64,000 nucleotides of DNA from an uncultured Anaeromyxobacter sp. (GTDB lineage Bacteria > Myxococcota > Myxococcia > Myxococcales > Anaeromyxobacteraceae): assembly GCA_903904005.1 (NCBI GenBank), contig CAIVAR010000168.1:1-64000 (forward strand), given 5' to 3'. Both the position numbers and the translations under genes were made by a program. The notes under the pieces were generated by a model. The model did not search any database and was not told the origin of the DNA. It worked only from the letters and a program-made list of their open reading frames with translations. Position 1 is the first letter of the stretch; every line of letters begins with the position of its first letter. This document shows, in pieces, positions 1 through 33,894 of the stretch.

Positions 1-837
<837 letters not shown>

Positions 838-855
838 ACCGGCCGCCCGCGCCGC

Positions 856-1958
<1,103 letters not shown>

Positions 1959-25231: not shown

Positions 25232-26121
25232 GACTGCGCCTCCTTCCCGGTCTTGCCCTCGGTCTCGTCGGGCACCTCGAGCGGGCCGTACCGCATGTAG
25301 TGGAGGATGCCGGCCACCAGGACGCCGAACATGGTGGCCACGCCCAGCGCGCGGGCCACGCCGGAGCGCCAGAAGGTGACCACCGCCCCCACGCTGGGAT
25401 CGCGCGGAAGTCCGTAGGTCTCCGGCCTGTCGCCGTGCGGCAGCACGTAGAAGACGTGGGTCCCGCCCACGCCGGACGGATCGTAGACAGCCGCCTTGGC
25501 CATGCCGCGCTCGTGGAGGTCCACGAGCCGGTGGTTGGCGAGTTCCGTCATCTCGGCCTTGCTGCCGAAGGTCAGCGCCTGGGTCGGGCAGGACTTGATG
25601 CAGGCCGGCTCGAGCCCCACCGAGACCCGGTCGGAGCAGAGGGTGCACTTGTAGACCCGGCCGTCCTGCTTGCGCATGCGGGGGATGTCGAACGGGCAGC
25701 CGGTGATGCAGTAGCCGCAGCCGATGCAGTTGTCCTGCTGGAAGTCGACGATGCCGTTCGCGTACTGGACGACGGCGCCCGGCGACGGGCAGGCCTTCAG
25801 GCATCCCGGGTCGGCGCAGTGCATGCAGCCGTCCTTGAAGATGAACCAGTTCAGCGAGCCGTCGATCACGGTCTCGTTGAACTTCATCACCGTCCAGGAC
25901 TGGTCGGAGAGGTGGAGCGGGTTCGCGTAGCTGCCCTGGAAGGTGCCCACCTCCTCGCGGAGGTCGTTCCACTCCATGCAGGCGGCCTGGCAGGCCTTGC
26001 AGCCGATGCAGCGGGAGAGGTCGATGAGCTTCGCCACCTCGGGCCGGAAGGACCGGGCCGAGGGGGCGGACTCCATCGTGGTCGCGGAGCGGAGGCGGAT
26101 GTCCTGGGTCTCGAGTGCCAT
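25228..26121 (-). CDS. fdhB: formate dehydrogenase iron-sulfur (beta) subunit
   Basis: 297 residues. Four ferredoxin-type cysteine clusters are visible: CIGCKACQAAC, CMHCADPGCLKAC, CIGCGYCITGCPF and CTLC...CIKSCP. They hold four [4Fe-4S] centres as in FdnH/FdoH. A single membrane helix near the C-terminus (ALGVATMFGVLVAGILHYM) anchors it on the periplasmic face. The protein has no Tat signal of its own and should travel with the large subunit. It starts nine bases after the large-subunit stop and overlaps the cytochrome gene. Confidence 0.94.
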   Translation of the reverse strand: MALETQDIRLRSATTMESAPSARSFRPEVAKLIDLSRCIGCKACQAACMEWNDLREEVGTFQGSYANPLHLSDQSWTVMKFNETVIDGSLNWFIFKDGCMHCADPGCLKACPSPGAVVQYANGIVDFQQDNCIGCGYCITGCPFDIPRMRKQDGRVYKCTLCSDRVSVGLEPACIKSCPTQALTFGSKAEMTELANHRLVDLHERGMAKAAVYDPSGVGGTHVFYVLPHGDRPETYGLPRDPSVGAVVTFWRSGVARALGVATMFGVLVAGILHYMRYGPLEVPDETEGKTGKEAQS

Positions 26122-26130
26122 GGCGTTCTC

Positions 26131-29100
26131 CTAGGCCTTCTCGACGTTGACCAGGAACGCCTTGTACTCGGGCGTCTGGATGTTGGCGTCGCCGACGGGC
26201 GGGGTCAGGGTGTTCGTGATGTACCCCTTGCGCGTCTGCCCCAGGAACCCCCAGTGGATGGGAAGCCCCACCACCTCGACCTCCTTGCCCTCGACGGTGA
26301 GCGTGGGCATTCGCTTCGTCACCAGCGCCTTCAGCTTGATCTGCCCGCGCTTCGACTTCACGACGACCATGTCGTCGTTCCGGATCCCCTTCTTCCGCGC
26401 CAGCCCCTCCGGCAGTTCCACGAAGGCCTCGGGCTGGAGGATGGCGGGGATGCGGGCGTGCTTGGTCCAGAAGTGGAAGTGCTCGGTGAGCCGGTAGGTG
26501 GTGGCCACGAAGGGGAACTCGTCGGGCTTCCCGAAGGCCTTCCAGTCGTCCTTGAAGACCCGCGCCGCCGGGTCGTTCAGCACCTTGCCGAAGGGGTTCC
26601 GGGCGAGCGGCGTGTCGAACGGCTCGTAGTGCTCGGGGAAGGGGCCGTCGGCCATGGCGGGAGCCCAGAGCCGGGCCACCCCCTCGCCGTTCATGATGAA
26701 CGGGTTCATCCCGTCGGCGGGCGGCGAGTCGGCCTTGAAGTCGGGGACGTCGTTGCCCACCCACTTCGTGCCGTTCCACCAGATGAGCTTCCGGGTCGGG
26801 ATGTAGGGCACCCCGTCCGCGTTGCAGGAGGCCCGGTTGTAGAGGACGCGCCGGTTTGCGGGCCAGGACCAGGCCCACCCCGGCGTGACGCCCAGGCCGC
26901 TCGGGTCGGAGGCGTCGCGGCGGGCCATCTGGTTGCCGGCCTGGGTCCACGAGCCGGCGAAGATCCAGCAGCCACAGGCGGTCGAACCGTCGGCCTGGAG
27001 CACGCCGAAGCCGGCGACCTGCTCCCCCTGCTTCACCAGGAACGCGCCGGGGTTCTTGGGATCGGGGACGTCGGCCAGCGCCTGGCCGTTGAACTCCCGG
27101 GCAACCTCCTCGGGCGCCGGTGCCTTCGTGATCCGGTACGGCCAGGCGAGCTTGAGCACGGGATCCGGGAAGGCCCCGCCCTCCGTCGCGTAGAGCTTCT
27201 TCAGGGCCAGGTAGAGCTCGGCCACGATCTCGAGGTCGCCCTTGGCCTCGGCCGGCGGCTCGGCCGCCTTCCAGTGCCACTGGAGCCAGCGGGCACTCGA
27301 GACGAGCGACCCGTCCTCCTCGGCGAAGAGGGAGGAGGGGAAGCGGAAGACCTCGGTCTGGATCTGGGAGGGATCGACGTCGTTGAACTCACCGTGGTTC
27401 CGCCAGAACTCGGAGGTCTCGGTGGAGAGCGGGTCGATGGTGACGAGGAACTTCAGCTTCCGGAGCCCGCCGAGGACCTTCTCCTTGTTCGGGAAGGAGG
27501 AGAGCGGGTTGAACCCCTGGCAGACGTAGCCGTTCACCTTGCCCTGGCTCATGAGCTCCATGACCCGGAGCACGTCGTAGGCGCCGTCGATCTTGGGCAG
27601 CCACTCGAAGGCGAAGTCGTTCTCCTTCGTCGCCGCGGCCCCGTACCAGGCCTTCATGAGCGAGACGAAGAACTTGGGGTAGTTCGCCCAGTAGTTGAAC
27701 TGCCCCGGGCGCAGCAGCTTGGGCGTGCGCTTCTCGAGATAGGTCTTGAGGTCGGGGTCCCCGTCGGTGGGGAGGGTCAGGTATCCCGGCAGCGAATGGG
27801 AGAGCAGCCCCAGGTCGGTGAGCCCCTGGATGTTGGAGTGGCCGCGGAGCGCGTTCACCCCGCCGCCCGCCATGCCCATGTTGCCGAGCAGCAGCTGGAG
27901 GATGGCGATGGAGCGGATGTTCTGGGAGCCGACGCTGTGCTGGGTCCAGCCGAGCGCGTAGAGGCTCGTCATGGTCCGGTCGGGAACGGCGGTGGTGGCG
28001 ATGGCCTCGCAGACCTTGAGGAAGCTCGCCTTCGGGGTCCCGGTGGTGCGTTCCACCAGCTCCGGCGTGTAGCGGGCGTAGTGGGTCTTCAGCCGCTGGA
28101 AGACGCTGTTCGGGTCCTGGAGCGTCGGGTCGACCTTGGCGATGCCGTCCTTGTCGACCTGGTAGTTCCAGGTGGACTTGTCGTAGCTCCGCTTGGCCTC
28201 GTCGTAGCCGGTGAAGAGCCCGTCGTCGAAGCCGGTGTCCTCGCGGACGAGCAGCGCGGCGCTGGTGTAGTTCCGGACGTAGTCGTGCTGGATCTTGTCG
28301 TTCGAGAGCAGGTAGTTGATGACCCCGCCCAGGAACGCGATGTCCGTCCCCGGCCGGATGGGGGCGTAGAAGTCGGCCACCGCGGCGGTCCGCGTGAAGC
28401 GCGGGTCGACCACGATGAGACGGGCCTTCTTCTTGGCCTTGGCCTCGAGCACCCACTTGAAGCCGCAGGGGTGCGCCTCCGCCGGGTTGCCTCCCATCAC
28501 CAGGATCAGGTCGGCATTCTTGATGTCGACCCAGCTGTTCGTCATCGCACCACGGCCGAATGTCGGGGCCAGACCGGCCACCGTGGGGCCGTGTCAGACA
28601 CGGGCCTGGTTGTCGACGGCGACCCCCCCGAGCGCCCGGATCACCTTGTGGAAGACGTAGCCGGTCTCGTTCGAGGAGGCCGAGGCCGCCAGGAACGCGG
28701 TGGTGTTCCAGCGGTTCACCACCTGTCCCTTGGCGTTCTGGGCGACGAAGTTCTTGTCGCGGTCGTCCTTCATGAGGCGCGCGACGCGGTCCATCGCCCA
28801 CTCCCAGGAGACGCGCTTCCACTCCGACGAGCCGGGGGCGCGGTACTCGGGGAACTTGAGCCGGGTGGGGCTGTGGATGAAGTCGAGGAGGCTCGCGCCC
28901 TTGGGGCAGAGCGTCCCGCGGTTCACCGGATGGTCGGGATCACCCTCCACGTGCATGATCTCGGTGCGCGCGTTCTTGGAGCGATCGCCGAGGCCGTAGA
29001 GGATGACGCCGCACCCGACCGAACAGTACGGGCAGGTGTTGCGGGTCTCGCTGGCGTGGGCCAGCTTGAAGAGCCGGACGTCGGCCACCGCGCGATCGGC

Positions 29101-29181
29101 GGAGAACCCCAGGGCGCCGACGGTGGTGGCGCCGATGCCGGACGCGGTGAGCTTGAGGAACCCTCTGCGGGAGACGTTCAT
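26131..29181 (-). CDS. fdhA: selenocysteine-containing formate dehydrogenase large subunit
   Basis: 1016 residues if the in-frame UGA at 28594-28596 is read as selenocysteine (residue 196). The flanking residues, DNQARV before and HGPTVAGLAPTFGRGAM after, match the Sec site of E. coli FdnG/FdoG. The N-terminus has a twin-arginine signal (SRRGFLK) followed by a hydrophobic stretch; CPYCSVGC and LCPKG supply the [4Fe-4S] ligands; the rest is the molybdopterin domain. It oxidises formate to CO2 on the outer face of the membrane. The ATG at 29181 is preferred over a GTG six bases upstream because GGAGG lies five bases before it. A plain gene finder would split it at the UGA. SelA, SelB and tRNA-Sec are not in this window. 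Confidence 0.95.
28548..28596 (-). promoter_or_regulatory. bacterial SECIS hairpin at the fdhA UGA codon
   Basis: Directly after the UGA the message folds into a hairpin whose tip is GGCC-GGUCU-GGCC (bases 28567-28579 in plus coordinates). The apical GGUCU lies exactly 18 bases after the UGA, the same loop and spacing as in E. coli fdhF. This is the signal bound by SelB to insert selenocysteine. The wider stem is less regular than the tip. Confidence 0.88.
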
Positions 29182-29310
29182 CGACACCTCCGGAGGCGCT
29201 TGAGGAAAGGCTCGGCCACGCTACTCCAAGCGCGGTCCCCAGCGAAAGGGTCGCCCCGGTCAAAAGAACGTCGGCCCGGGCTGGCGCGCCGCGTCAACGT
29301 CCACGGGGGC

Positions 29311-29337
29311 TCGACAACGGCTGGCCCGGTCACTAAT
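29311..29337 (+). promoter_or_regulatory. weak promoter candidate before the liv operon
   Basis: TCGACA (29311-29316) and ACTAAT (29332-29337) are 15 bases apart, which is short, about 30 bases before livG. The 184-base divergent gap between fdhA and livG holds no good FNR dyad or sigma-54 site that I can see. Confidence 0.22.
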
Positions 29338-29365
29338 CATTCCCCTCCGCGCCCGACCCCCGAAC

Positions 29366-30118
29366 ATGCCCGACGACCTCATCCTCGAGACCCGCGACGT
29401 CGTGAAGGAGTTCCGAGGGTTCGTGGCCGTCGCGGGTGTGTCACTCAAAGTGAAGCGTGGGTCCATCCACGGGCTGATCGGCCCGAACGGCGCCGGCAAG
29501 ACCACCATGTTCAACCTGCTCACCCGGTTCCTCCCGGCAACGCGGGGGTCCATCCTCCACCGGGGGGAGGACGTCACCCGGCTCCCGGCGGCGCAGGTGG
29601 CGCGGCGCGGGGTCGTCCGCTCCTTCCAGATCTCGGCCGTGTTCCCGAGCCTCACCGCCCTCGAGAACGTGCGCATCGCCCTGCAGCGCCCGCTCGGGAC
29701 CTCCTTCCGGTTCTGGGCCCCGGCCCGCAGCCTCTCCGTCCTCGACGACCGGGCGCGCGCGCTCCTCGGCGACGTGGACCTGGCGGCGCTCGCCGACGTG
29801 CCGGCCGGGGAGCTTCCCTACGGCCGCAAGCGGGCGCTCGAGCTCGCCACCACGCTGGCGCTCGAGCCGGAGGTGCTCCTCCTCGACGAGCCCACCGCCG
29901 GGATGGGGCACGAGGACGTGGGGCGCGTCGCCGAGCTCATCAAGCGGGTGGCGAAGGGGCGAACCGTCCTCATGGTCGAGCACAACCTCTCGGTGGTGGC
30001 GGATCTCTGCGACACCATCACGGTGCTGGCGCGCGGCGCGGTCCTGGCCGAGGGAAGCTACGCCCAGGTGTCGTCCGACCCCGCGGTGCGCGAGGCCTAC
30101 ATCGGGAGCGCCGCGTGA
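29366..30118 (+). CDS. livG: HAAT/branched-chain amino acid ABC transporter ATPase LivG
   Basis: 250 residues. Walker A GPNGAGKTTMFNLL, Q-loop RSFQISAVF, Walker B VLLLDEPTAGM and H-loop VEHN are all intact. The signature helix reads LPYGRKRALE rather than LSGGQ, in line with LivG relatives, which often have SYGQ. It is one of two ATPases powering a branched-chain amino acid or amide-type importer. The stop overlaps the GTG of livF (GTGA). Confidence 0.9.
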   Translation: MPDDLILETRDVVKEFRGFVAVAGVSLKVKRGSIHGLIGPNGAGKTTMFNLLTRFLPATRGSILHRGEDVTRLPAAQVARRGVVRSFQISAVFPSLTALENVRIALQRPLGTSFRFWAPARSLSVLDDRARALLGDVDLAALADVPAGELPYGRKRALELATTLALEPEVLLLDEPTAGMGHEDVGRVAELIKRVAKGRTVLMVEHNLSVVADLCDTITVLARGAVLAEGSYAQVSSDPAVREAYIGSAA

Positions 30119-30837
30119 ACCCGGCCTCCGCCACCCCCGCGCTCCGCATCCGGGACCTGAACGCCTTCTACGGCGAGTCGCACGTCCTCCATGGCGTGAA
30201 CCTCGAGGTCGCCGAGGGGGAGGTGGTGACGCTCCTCGGCCGCAACGGGTCCGGGCGCACCTCCACGCTCAAGTCGATCCTCGGGCTGGTGGGGCGGCGC
30301 ACCGGATCCATCCAGGTCGGCGGCAAGGAGACGGTGGGCATGGCGCCCCACCGCATCGCCCGGCTCGGCATCGGCATCGGCTATTGCCCCGAGGAGCGCG
30401 GCATCTTCGCCAGCCTCTCCACCGAGGAGAACCTGCTGCTGCTCCCGCGCATCGGCGCCACCGGGATGCCCGAGTCCGAGATCTACGCGATGTTCCCCAA
30501 CCTGGAGGAGCGCCGGAAGAGCCAGGGCACGCGCCTCTCCGGCGGCGAGCAGCAGATGCTCGCCATGGCCCGCATCCTCCGCGCCGGCGCCCGGCTGCTC
30601 CTCCTCGACGAGATCACCGAGGGGCTCGCCCCGGTCATCGTCCAGGGGCTCGGGCGGGTGGTGCGCCAGCTCAAGGAGCGGGGCTACACCATCGTCCTCG
30701 TGGAGCAGAACTTCCGGTTCGCCGCGCCGCTCGCCGACCGCCACTTCCTGCTCGAGCACGGGAAGGTCGTCGACGTGATCGAGGCGGCGCAGCTGGCCGG
30801 TAGAATGGATTCGTTGCAGGAGTTCCTGGGTGTGTAG
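30115..30837 (+). CDS. livF: HAAT/branched-chain amino acid ABC transporter ATPase LivF, Arg in Walker A
   Basis: 240 residues. The P-loop reads GRNGSGRTST, so the invariant Walker A lysine is arginine. Other motifs are good: signature LSGGEQQMLAMARIL, Walker B LLLLDEITEGL (Ile where Pro is usual) and VEQN at the H-loop as in other LivF proteins. The codon is CGC, two changes from a lysine codon. A Lys-to-Arg change usually weakens ATP hydrolysis, so this half of the ATPase dimer may be regulatory. Start by GTGA overlap with livG. Confidence 0.88.
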   Translation: MNPASATPALRIRDLNAFYGESHVLHGVNLEVAEGEVVTLLGRNGSGRTSTLKSILGLVGRRTGSIQVGGKETVGMAPHRIARLGIGIGYCPEERGIFASLSTEENLLLLPRIGATGMPESEIYAMFPNLEERRKSQGTRLSGGEQQMLAMARILRAGARLLLLDEITEGLAPVIVQGLGRVVRQLKERGYTIVLVEQNFRFAAPLADRHFLLEHGKVVDVIEAAQLAGRMDSLQEFLGV

Positions 30838-30867
30838 TCCGTCCGTGAACCTCGGAGGAGAGACCAC

Positions 30868-32076
30868 ATGAAGATCCGCCTCGCATTCGCCGCAGCCCTC
30901 TTGCTGGCCGCCGGAACGGCCCTGGCCGCCGATCCCAAGGTCAGCGACGACGTCGTGAAGATCGGCGTCCTCACCGACATGACCGGTTACTACTCCGACC
31001 TCTCCGGCGCCGGGTCGCTGGAGGCCGCCAGGATGGCCGCCGAGGACTTCGGCGGGAAGGTGCTCGGCAAGCCCATCGTGGTCATCGGCGCCGACCACCA
31101 GCTCAAGGCCGACGTGGCCTCCACCGTGGCCCGCAAGTGGTTCGACGAGGAGAAGGTGGACGCCATCGTCGACCTGGTCTCCTCGTCCACGGCGCTGGCC
31201 GTCATGCCGGTGGCCGCCGAGAAGAAGCGCATCACGCTGCTCTCCGGCCCGGGCACCACCGCCATCACCGGCGACAAGTGCACGCCGTACAACTTCCACT
31301 GGACGTACAACAACTGGGCGCTCGCCAACGGCACCGGCCGCGAGGTGGTGAAGCAGGGTGGGACCACCTGGTACTTCCTCACCGCCGACTACGTCTTCGG
31401 CAAGTCGCTCGAGGAGGACACCGCCAACGTGGTGAAGGCCGCCGGCGGCAAGGTCCTCGGCGCCTCGCGCCACCCGTCGCCCGGCACCACCGACTTCTCC
31501 TCCTTCCTGCTCCAGGCCCAGGCCTCGGGCGCCAAGATCATCGGCCTCGCCAACGCCGGCGCCGACACCATCAACGCCATCAAGCAGGCCAACGAGTTCG
31601 GCATCACCAAGAAGCAGAACCTGGCCGGCCTGCTCGTGTTCATCTCCGACATCAACAGCCTCGGGCTGCCCACCGCCAAGGGCATGTACCTCACCACCGC
31701 CTTCTACTGGGATCGCGACGACGCTTCCCGGAAGTGGTCGAAGCGCTTCTTCGACAAGATGAAGAAGATGCCCACCATGGTGCAGGCCGGCGTCTACTCG
31801 GCGGTCACCCACTACCTCAAGGCCATCCAGGCCTCCGGCACCGACGCCCCCGACGCCGTGGCCGCCAAGATGCGCGAGACGCCGGTGAACGACTTCTTCG
31901 CGACCAACGGCAGGATCGGCCCGGACGGTCTGCACCGGCACGACATGTACCTCGTCCAGGTGAAGGATCCCTCGGAGTCGAAGTACCCCTGGGACTACTA
32001 CAAGATCGCCAAGGTGATCCCGGCGGCCGAGGCCTTCCCCCCGGTCTCCGACAAGTGCCCGCTCGTGAAGAAGTAG
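30868..32076 (+). CDS. livK: ABC transporter substrate-binding protein (LivJ/LivK type)
   Basis: 402 residues from an ATG with GGAGGAGA upstream. A signal peptide (AFAAALLLAAGTALA) is followed by a type I periplasmic binding fold: VVKIGVLTDMTGYYSDLSG, then VDLVSSSTALAVMPVA and FLTADYVFGKSLEEDT. It captures the transporter's ligand in the periplasm. The ligand cannot be read from sequence; this family takes amino acids, amides, urea and aromatic acids. It lies between the ATPase and permease genes of one transporter. Confidence 0.9.
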   Translation: MKIRLAFAAALLLAAGTALAADPKVSDDVVKIGVLTDMTGYYSDLSGAGSLEAARMAAEDFGGKVLGKPIVVIGADHQLKADVASTVARKWFDEEKVDAIVDLVSSSTALAVMPVAAEKKRITLLSGPGTTAITGDKCTPYNFHWTYNNWALANGTGREVVKQGGTTWYFLTADYVFGKSLEEDTANVVKAAGGKVLGASRHPSPGTTDFSSFLLQAQASGAKIIGLANAGADTINAIKQANEFGITKKQNLAGLLVFISDINSLGLPTAKGMYLTTAFYWDRDDASRKWSKRFFDKMKKMPTMVQAGVYSAVTHYLKAIQASGTDAPDAVAAKMRETPVNDFFATNGRIGPDGLHRHDMYLVQVKDPSESKYPWDYYKIAKVIPAAEAFPPVSDKCPLVKK

Positions 32077-32083
32077 ACCGGGG

Positions 32084-32950
32084 ATGATCCAGGCGCTCTC
32101 CGGCCAGCTGCTGCTGGGCCTCATCAACGGCTCGTTCTACGCGCTGCTCTCCCTCGGGCTGGCCATCATCTTCGGCCTGCTCGACGTGGTGAACTTCGCG
32201 CACGGCGCGCAGTACATGCTGGGAGCCTTCCTGGCGTGGATGGGGCTCTCGTACCTCGGCATCGGCTACTGGTGGGCGCTTCTCCTCTCGCCGCTCGTGG
32301 TCGGGGCGACCGGGCTCGTCATCGAACGGGTCTTCCTCCGGCGGCTCCAGGGGCTCGACAACCTCTACGGCCTCCTGCTCACCTTCGGCCTGGCGCTGAT
32401 CATCGAGGGGCTCTTCCACCACGCCTTCGGCAACTCGGGCAGCCCGTATCCGGTGCCCGAGCTGCTGCGGGGCGGGTTCGACCTGGGATTCATGTACCTG
32501 CCCAAGTACCGGGCCTGGGTGGTGGTGGTGTCGCTGGCGGTCTCGCTCGGCTCCTGGTTCGTCATCGAGAAGACCCGCCTGGGCGCCTACCTGCGGGCCG
32601 GCACCGAAAATCCAAAGTTGCTGCAGGCCTTCGGCGTGAACGTGCCCGTCATGTTCATGCTGACCTACGGCTTCGGCGTGGCGCTGGCGGCCTTCGCCGG
32701 CGTCATGGCCGCGCCCATCTACCAGGTGACGCCGATGATGGGCTCGTCGCTCATCATGGTGGTCTTCGCGGTGGTGGTCATCGGCGGCATGGGATCGATC
32801 CTCGGCTCGATCGTCACCGGGATCGGCGTGGGACTCGTCGAGGGGCTCACCAAGTTCATCTGGCCAGAGGCCGCCAGCGTGGTGGTCTTCTTGCTCATGG
32901 CCATCGTGCTGCTCGTCCGCCCGGCCGGCCTCTTCGGGAGGCAGAAGTGA
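32084..32950 (+). CDS. livH: ABC transporter permease LivH
   Basis: 288 residues, about eight hydrophobic helices. LLLGLINGSFYALLSLGLAIIFGLLDVVNFAHG at the start is the LivH hallmark, and IGGMGSILGSIVTGIGVGLVEG lies near the end. It is one half of the membrane channel. It follows the binding protein by seven bases and overlaps livM by four (GTGA). Confidence 0.93.
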   Translation: MIQALSGQLLLGLINGSFYALLSLGLAIIFGLLDVVNFAHGAQYMLGAFLAWMGLSYLGIGYWWALLLSPLVVGATGLVIERVFLRRLQGLDNLYGLLLTFGLALIIEGLFHHAFGNSGSPYPVPELLRGGFDLGFMYLPKYRAWVVVVSLAVSLGSWFVIEKTRLGAYLRAGTENPKLLQAFGVNVPVMFMLTYGFGVALAAFAGVMAAPIYQVTPMMGSSLIMVVFAVVVIGGMGSILGSIVTGIGVGLVEGLTKFIWPEAASVVVFLLMAIVLLVRPAGLFGRQK

Positions 32951-33894
32951 CCGGCAGGGCACGCCGGGTCTGGTCCGGCCAGGCGATCTTCGTCGCCTGG
33001 GCCACCGTCGTGGCCGTGGGCATCGTGGCCCCGTTCGTGGTCTACCCGGTCTTCGCCATGAACGTCCTGGTGATGGCGCTCTTCGCGAGCGCCTTCAACC
33101 TGCTCCTGGGCTACTCCGGGCTGCTCTCCTTCGGCCACGCCGCCTTCCTCGGCTCGGCCGCCTACGTCACCGGCTGGGCCGCCAAGTCCTGGCACCTGCC
33201 GGTCCTCGTCTCGATGGGCGCCGGCGTGGCGGTGGCCACGGTCCTGGGGCTCCTGTTCGGGGTGCTGGCCCTGCGCCGGTCGGGCATCTACTTCGCCATG
33301 ATCACGCTGGGGCTCGCCCAGGTGGTCTACTTCCTCGTCGTCCAGATGCCCTGGACCGGGGGTGAGGACGGCCTCCAGGGCATCCCGCGCGGGACGTTCC
33401 TGGGCATCGACCTCGGCAACTCCTTCGCGATGTACTACTTCACCTACGCGGTCTTCCTGGCCGCCTTCTGGCTCATCCAGCGCACCATCCACTCGCCCTT
33501 CGGGCAGGTGCTGCGGGCCATCCGCGAGAACGAGCCGCGCGCCATCTCGCTCGGCTACGACGTGCAGCGCTACAAGTTGCTCGCCTTCGTCATCTCGGCG
33601 TCGCTGGCCGGCCTGGCCGGGTCGCTCAAGGCCGTGGCGCTCCAGTTCGCGACGCTCGGCGACGTGGCCTGGCAGCGCAGCGGGGAGGTGGTCCTCATGA
33701 CCCTCCTCGGCGGCATGGGCACGGTCCTCGGCCCCTCGGTGGGGGCGCTGCTCGTGGTCACGATGGAGAACTACCTGTCCAGCCTGGGCTCCTGGGTCAC
33801 CGTCATCACCGGCACGGTCTTCGTGGTGATGGTCATGGCCTTCCGGCGCGGGCTGGTGGGCGAGATCAAGGCGCTCTTCGCGCGAAGGTCCTGA
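32947..33894 (+). CDS. livM: ABC transporter permease LivM
   Basis: 315 residues. Family segments are FNLLLGYSGLLSFGHAAFLG, RRSGIYFAMITLGLAQ and RAIRENEPRAISLGYDVQRYK, the coupling region facing the ATPases. It is the second membrane half of the Liv-type importer. The GTG start comes from the overlap with livH. The 3-hydroxybutyrate dehydrogenase gene follows after 18 bases, suggesting one transcript. Confidence 0.92.
   Translation: MTGRARRVWSGQAIFVAWATVVAVGIVAPFVVYPVFAMNVLVMALFASAFNLLLGYSGLLSFGHAAFLGSAAYVTGWAAKSWHLPVLVSMGAGVAVATVLGLLFGVLALRRSGIYFAMITLGLAQVVYFLVVQMPWTGGEDGLQGIPRGTFLGIDLGNSFAMYYFTYAVFLAAFWLIQRTIHSPFGQVLRAIRENEPRAISLGYDVQRYKLLAFVISASLAGLAGSLKAVALQFATLGDVAWQRSGEVVLMTLLGGMGTVLGPSVGALLVVTMENYLSSLGSWVTVITGTVFVVMVMAFRRGLVGEIKALFARRS

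Follow-up and report, generated by a model that had tools for sequence, protein, structure and literature searches.

An in-frame UGA at the catalytic site and an E. coli-type SECIS element in the formate dehydrogenase-N alpha subunit gene of an uncultured Anaeromyxobacter

The window analysed here (the whole 64,000-nt stretch of DNA from an uncultured Anaeromyxobacter sp.) carries a minus-strand gene cluster in the order fdnG-fdnH-fdnI-fdhE, in which the fdnH/fdnI and fdnI/fdhE junctions overlap by 4 nt, start over stop (Table 1). The adjoining genes for a beta (iron-sulfur) and a gamma (cytochrome b) subunit fit an FdnGHI / FdoGHI complex. E. coli FdnG/FdoG share with the window operon both the adjacency of alpha and beta genes and the twin-arginine (Tat) motif, which we take SRRGFLK in the fdnG product to be; in the window fdhE directly follows fdnI, the comparison with the E. 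coli gene order extending only as far as the beta gene. Divergently from fdnG, at 29366–33894 on the plus strand, lies a probable ABC transporter operon for branched-chain amino acids, with ATPases, a periplasmic binding protein and permeases; in a close relative (L025, see below) the equivalent divergent position is occupied by a 250-aa ORF. An 1845-aa plus-strand frame (25300–30837), antisense to the fdn operon and with its 3' end also overlapping a transporter ATPase gene, is a spurious ORF of the kind typical in GC-rich DNA.

Table 1 Features of the fdn locus in the window (positions are those of the window)
Feature	Position	Strand	Evidence or remark
fdnG, Sec formate dehydrogenase-N alpha subunit, 1016 residues	26131..29181	-	TIGR01553, 1kqf_A, Pfam
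Almost certain Sec codon UGA, residue 196	28594..28596	-	translation; alignment to E. coli FdnG Sec
Shine-Dalgarno-like GGAGG, 5 nt 5' of ATG 29181	29187..29191	-	sequence reading
Presumed twin-arginine (Tat) signal motif SRRGFLK in fdnG	29152..29172	-	translation
Bacterial SECIS element (Rfam SECIS_3)	28541..28599	-	85.2 bits, full model 1-59
Apical hairpin GGCC-GGUCU-GGCC, presumed SelB-binding tip; GGUCU 28571-28575	28567..28579	-	
fdnH, iron-sulfur beta subunit, C-terminal membrane helix	25228..26121	-	TIGR01582 FDH-beta 418 bits (cut-off 334.7); Form-deh_trans PF09163
fdnI, cytochrome b gamma subunit, 216 aa	24581..25231	-	PF01292 Ni_hydr_CYTB 86.7 bits; start codon inferred
fdhE, formate dehydrogenase accessory protein, 289 aa	23715..24584	-	FdhE_N, FdhE_central, FdhE_C above cut-off; start codon inferred

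Translation of fdnG with TGA read as selenocysteine (U) gave 1016 codons with U196 as the sole reinterpreted codon, followed by a regular terminal stop, in agreement with the initial annotation, which had described a frame interrupted only by this UGA. It had also predicted that automatic gene calling would report two broken genes, and Table 11 translation of the region does yield two ORFs, of 197 aa (28594–29187) and 816 aa (26131–28581). The read-through protein matched TIGR01553 (formate dehydrogenase-N alpha) at 1496.7 bits against a cut-off of 814.2, over profile positions 2–1009 of 1009, and contained the domains PF04879 Molybdop_Fe4S4, PF00384 Molybdopterin and PF01568 Molydop_binding in the expected order, all above cut-off. 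Judged by these profile matches, the window gene is a real formate dehydrogenase-N alpha gene (TIGR01553 equivalog).

Alignment with E. coli FdnG (1kqf_A; 1497 bits, across residues 1–1016) was colinear over the full length, window 1–1016 pairing with 1–1015, and the UGA fell on the E. coli Sec (printed X). The flanks had been described as identical to those of the E. coli site; this holds for AVDNQARV-U-HGPTVA, but not for the next residue, 203, which is Gly in the window and Ser in E. coli. E. coli FdhF is shorter (715 aa), and its sequence match to the window FdnG is partial and distant.

A search with RF01989 (SECIS_3) returned, for the span 28548–28596 that had been put forward for SECIS prediction, a match at 28541–28599 (85.2 bits, gathering score 63, E 8e-19 for the window), the sole one in the whole 4.56 Mb genome. 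RF00031 (SECIS_1) produced zero matches in the genome and zero in the control genomes too; RF01989 is the appropriate SECIS family here. The hairpin tip, presumably bound by SelB in view of what is established for fdhF of E. coli, lies where it had been reported, with exactly 18 nt between the UGA and GGUCU. The asserted likeness to fdhF is also borne out, as E. coli fdhF combines a GGUCU apical loop with an 18-nt UGA-to-loop spacing; a 45-base piece of that gene was found at ≥99% identity in 5,363 records, annotated fdhF. E. coli fdoG has the same 18-nt spacing, whereas its apical loop is AGUCU, corresponding to the Gly-for-Ser difference at residue 203. With its GGUCU loop and 18-nt spacing, the fdnG hairpin falls within the published bSECIS model, which places G in loop positions 1–2 and allows a spacing of 16–37 nt (PMC13188914).

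The folding energy of the element was unremarkable (z -0.78), with 555 of 1000 recodings folding equally well, and because the DNA is so GC-rich this energy alone is no evidence. Among recodings of the window itself, 0.4% formed the whole apical stem with GGUCU at its proper position. Comparative data, by contrast, do support the SECIS at the level of sequence. In the 80 UGA-containing sequences, the codon pair 202/204 occurred as GCA-CTT (59), GCC-CTG (19) and GCC-TTG (2), its third positions always forming A-U or C-G, and the pair 201/205 as GTG-GCC (61), GTA-GCT (17) and GTG-GCT (2), with third positions varying among G-C, G-U and A-U. Both covarying apical-stem pairs are silent at the protein level, and broken pairs numbered 0 among the 80 sequences; codon 200 was ACG in all 80. 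Among the 54 distinct sequences the apical stem was fully paired in every one, and SECIS pairs were kept at 0.92 versus 0.76 ± 0.01 under protein-preserving recoding, a null that ignores the kinship of the sequences, and these figures (92% and 76%) are not formal probabilities. Mean synonymous conservation across codons 197–214 was not exceptional (188 of 993 gene windows were as high) because the signal is confined to codons 200 and 203 and the pairs 201/205 and 202/204.

The UGA itself proved to be strongly conserved. Codon 196 is TGA in 79 of 80 relatives and in all four genomes of the genus; the single exception, L068 (Telmatospirillum sp.), has Cys (TGC) at the position and lacks the GGUCU tip, making it a natural control for the SECIS. 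Together with the 1kqf alignment, these counts place the UGA at the known Sec/Cys catalytic site. They also bear on two alternative accounts of the interrupted frame. That fdnG is a pseudogene, a dead truncated gene left by mutation of a Cys codon to a stop, would agree with the two broken ORFs under Table 11; however, the UGA sits exactly at the Sec site, the rest of the frame is intact, a SECIS is present and the Sec machinery of the genome is complete, so that this account is barely credible and is in effect refuted by the conservation of the UGA. An error of sequencing or assembly turning TGC or TGT into TGA might be entertained for a draft genome of 186 contigs, but the identical codon recurs in independently assembled relatives and isolates, and such an error could not create a SECIS; we regard its probability as practically negligible. 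The conservation of both UGA and bSECIS across relatives instead supports the overall reading of the initial annotation, that of a selenocysteine formate dehydrogenase.

The nearest relatives belong to the Anaeromyxobacteraceae (Myxococcota), at 90–94% identity and all with UGA. FdnG of the uncultured Anaeromyxobacter bin-1268 (CAIQRS010000147.1, L025) is 94% identical, shares the UGA and the hairpin tip, and shows a few silent differences from the window over the SECIS span; that of Anaeromyxobacter sp. PSR-1 is 70% identical. On the tree, the window sequence clusters with full support with the six Myxococcota sequences that carry names, and this group adjoins Alphaproteobacteria and Dyella with 81% support. 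On this topology, a recent transfer of fdnG from Pseudomonadota into the genus is not indicated.

The initial annotation had taken the UGA to imply a Sec system in the organism, and had named absence of selA, selB, selD and selC from the genome as the observation that would count against it. All four are present above their cut-offs in the draft assembly (186 contigs, 4.56 Mb, 98% completeness, 0.7% contamination), on contigs other than the window's: a tRNA-Sec (anticodon UCA, 80 bits), selA (a summed score of 469.6 bits across the frame against a cut-off of 267.9), selB (a summed 307 bits against 242) and selD (387 bits against 125). A second above-cut-off match to the tRNA-Sec model, on contig C142, was rejected as an extra selC, being tRNA-Ser by ARAGORN. 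selA and selB share contig C37 (L105:4630-13253), ~5 kb apart, with a series of membrane genes resembling those of proton-pumping NADH dehydrogenase (NuoL/M/N-like) between them on the opposite strand; tRNA-Sec and selD lie on contigs other than C37. Decoding of the UGA as Cys or Trp by a near-cognate or suppressor tRNA is extremely unlikely in a genome that encodes the cognate tRNA-Sec with SelA, SelB and SelD, and with a SECIS conserved through silent covariation. From the comparisons made here, codon 196 is almost certainly read as selenocysteine, not as a stop.

Two further genes carry an in-frame UGA. In selD (L106:4080-5010, minus strand; contig C7:13565-14491) it lies in the catalytic motif GAGUACK (MSESPPRLTALSHGAG-U-ACK), with a hairpin GGCGCAG-GUC-CUGCGCC, GUC on top, ~25–30 nt 3' of the UGA. 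In an AhpC/TSA peroxiredoxin gene (L129:1450-1944, plus strand; contig C94:20458-20829) it occupies the catalytic site, FTPG-U-NKENQ. By these motifs, SelD is probably the second selenoprotein of the genome and the peroxiredoxin probably the third, so that with fdnG at least three probable selenoproteins are encoded. For Anaeromyxobacter dehalogenans, of the same genus as judged by the nearest relatives, FdhA (3) and SelD were listed among 11 selenoproteins, and peroxiredoxins were listed too (Zhang et al. 2006, PMC1794560); compared with its three Sec FdhA, one UGA-containing formate dehydrogenase was found in the window genome.

We consider it highly probable, taking the reading as a whole, that fdnG encodes the catalytic, Sec-containing alpha subunit of an FdnGHI/FdoGHI-type formate dehydrogenase, one exported by the Tat route and anchored in the membrane, with SelB-dependent decoding of the UGA. 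By homology, SelB with GTP and Sec-tRNA-Sec would bind the GGUCU-tipped hairpin just 3' of the UGA and deliver selenocysteine at codon 196, where Sec196 would serve as a ligand of a Mo (or W) bis-pterin cofactor. In an active, exported enzyme, electrons from formate would pass through the Fe-S clusters of the alpha and beta subunits to the cytochrome b gamma subunit and on to the quinone pool, and FdhE may aid maturation of the enzyme. A variant in which UGA decoding is inefficient or conditional (e.g. selenium-dependent), acting as a switch between truncated and full-length enzyme, is very unlikely, and nothing here favours it.

The UGA/Sec formate dehydrogenase arrangement has long been familiar in E. 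coli and in numerous further bacteria, members of Anaeromyxobacter among them, and the window fdnG is an ordinary member of this well-known family, with no new feature. Its relatives provide a set with clean silent-site covariation, and the gene adds one further Myxococcota case of an E. coli-type SECIS. For annotation, the consequence is that a naive gene caller cuts a respiratory formate dehydrogenase in two; the source organism should enter records as Sec-decoding.
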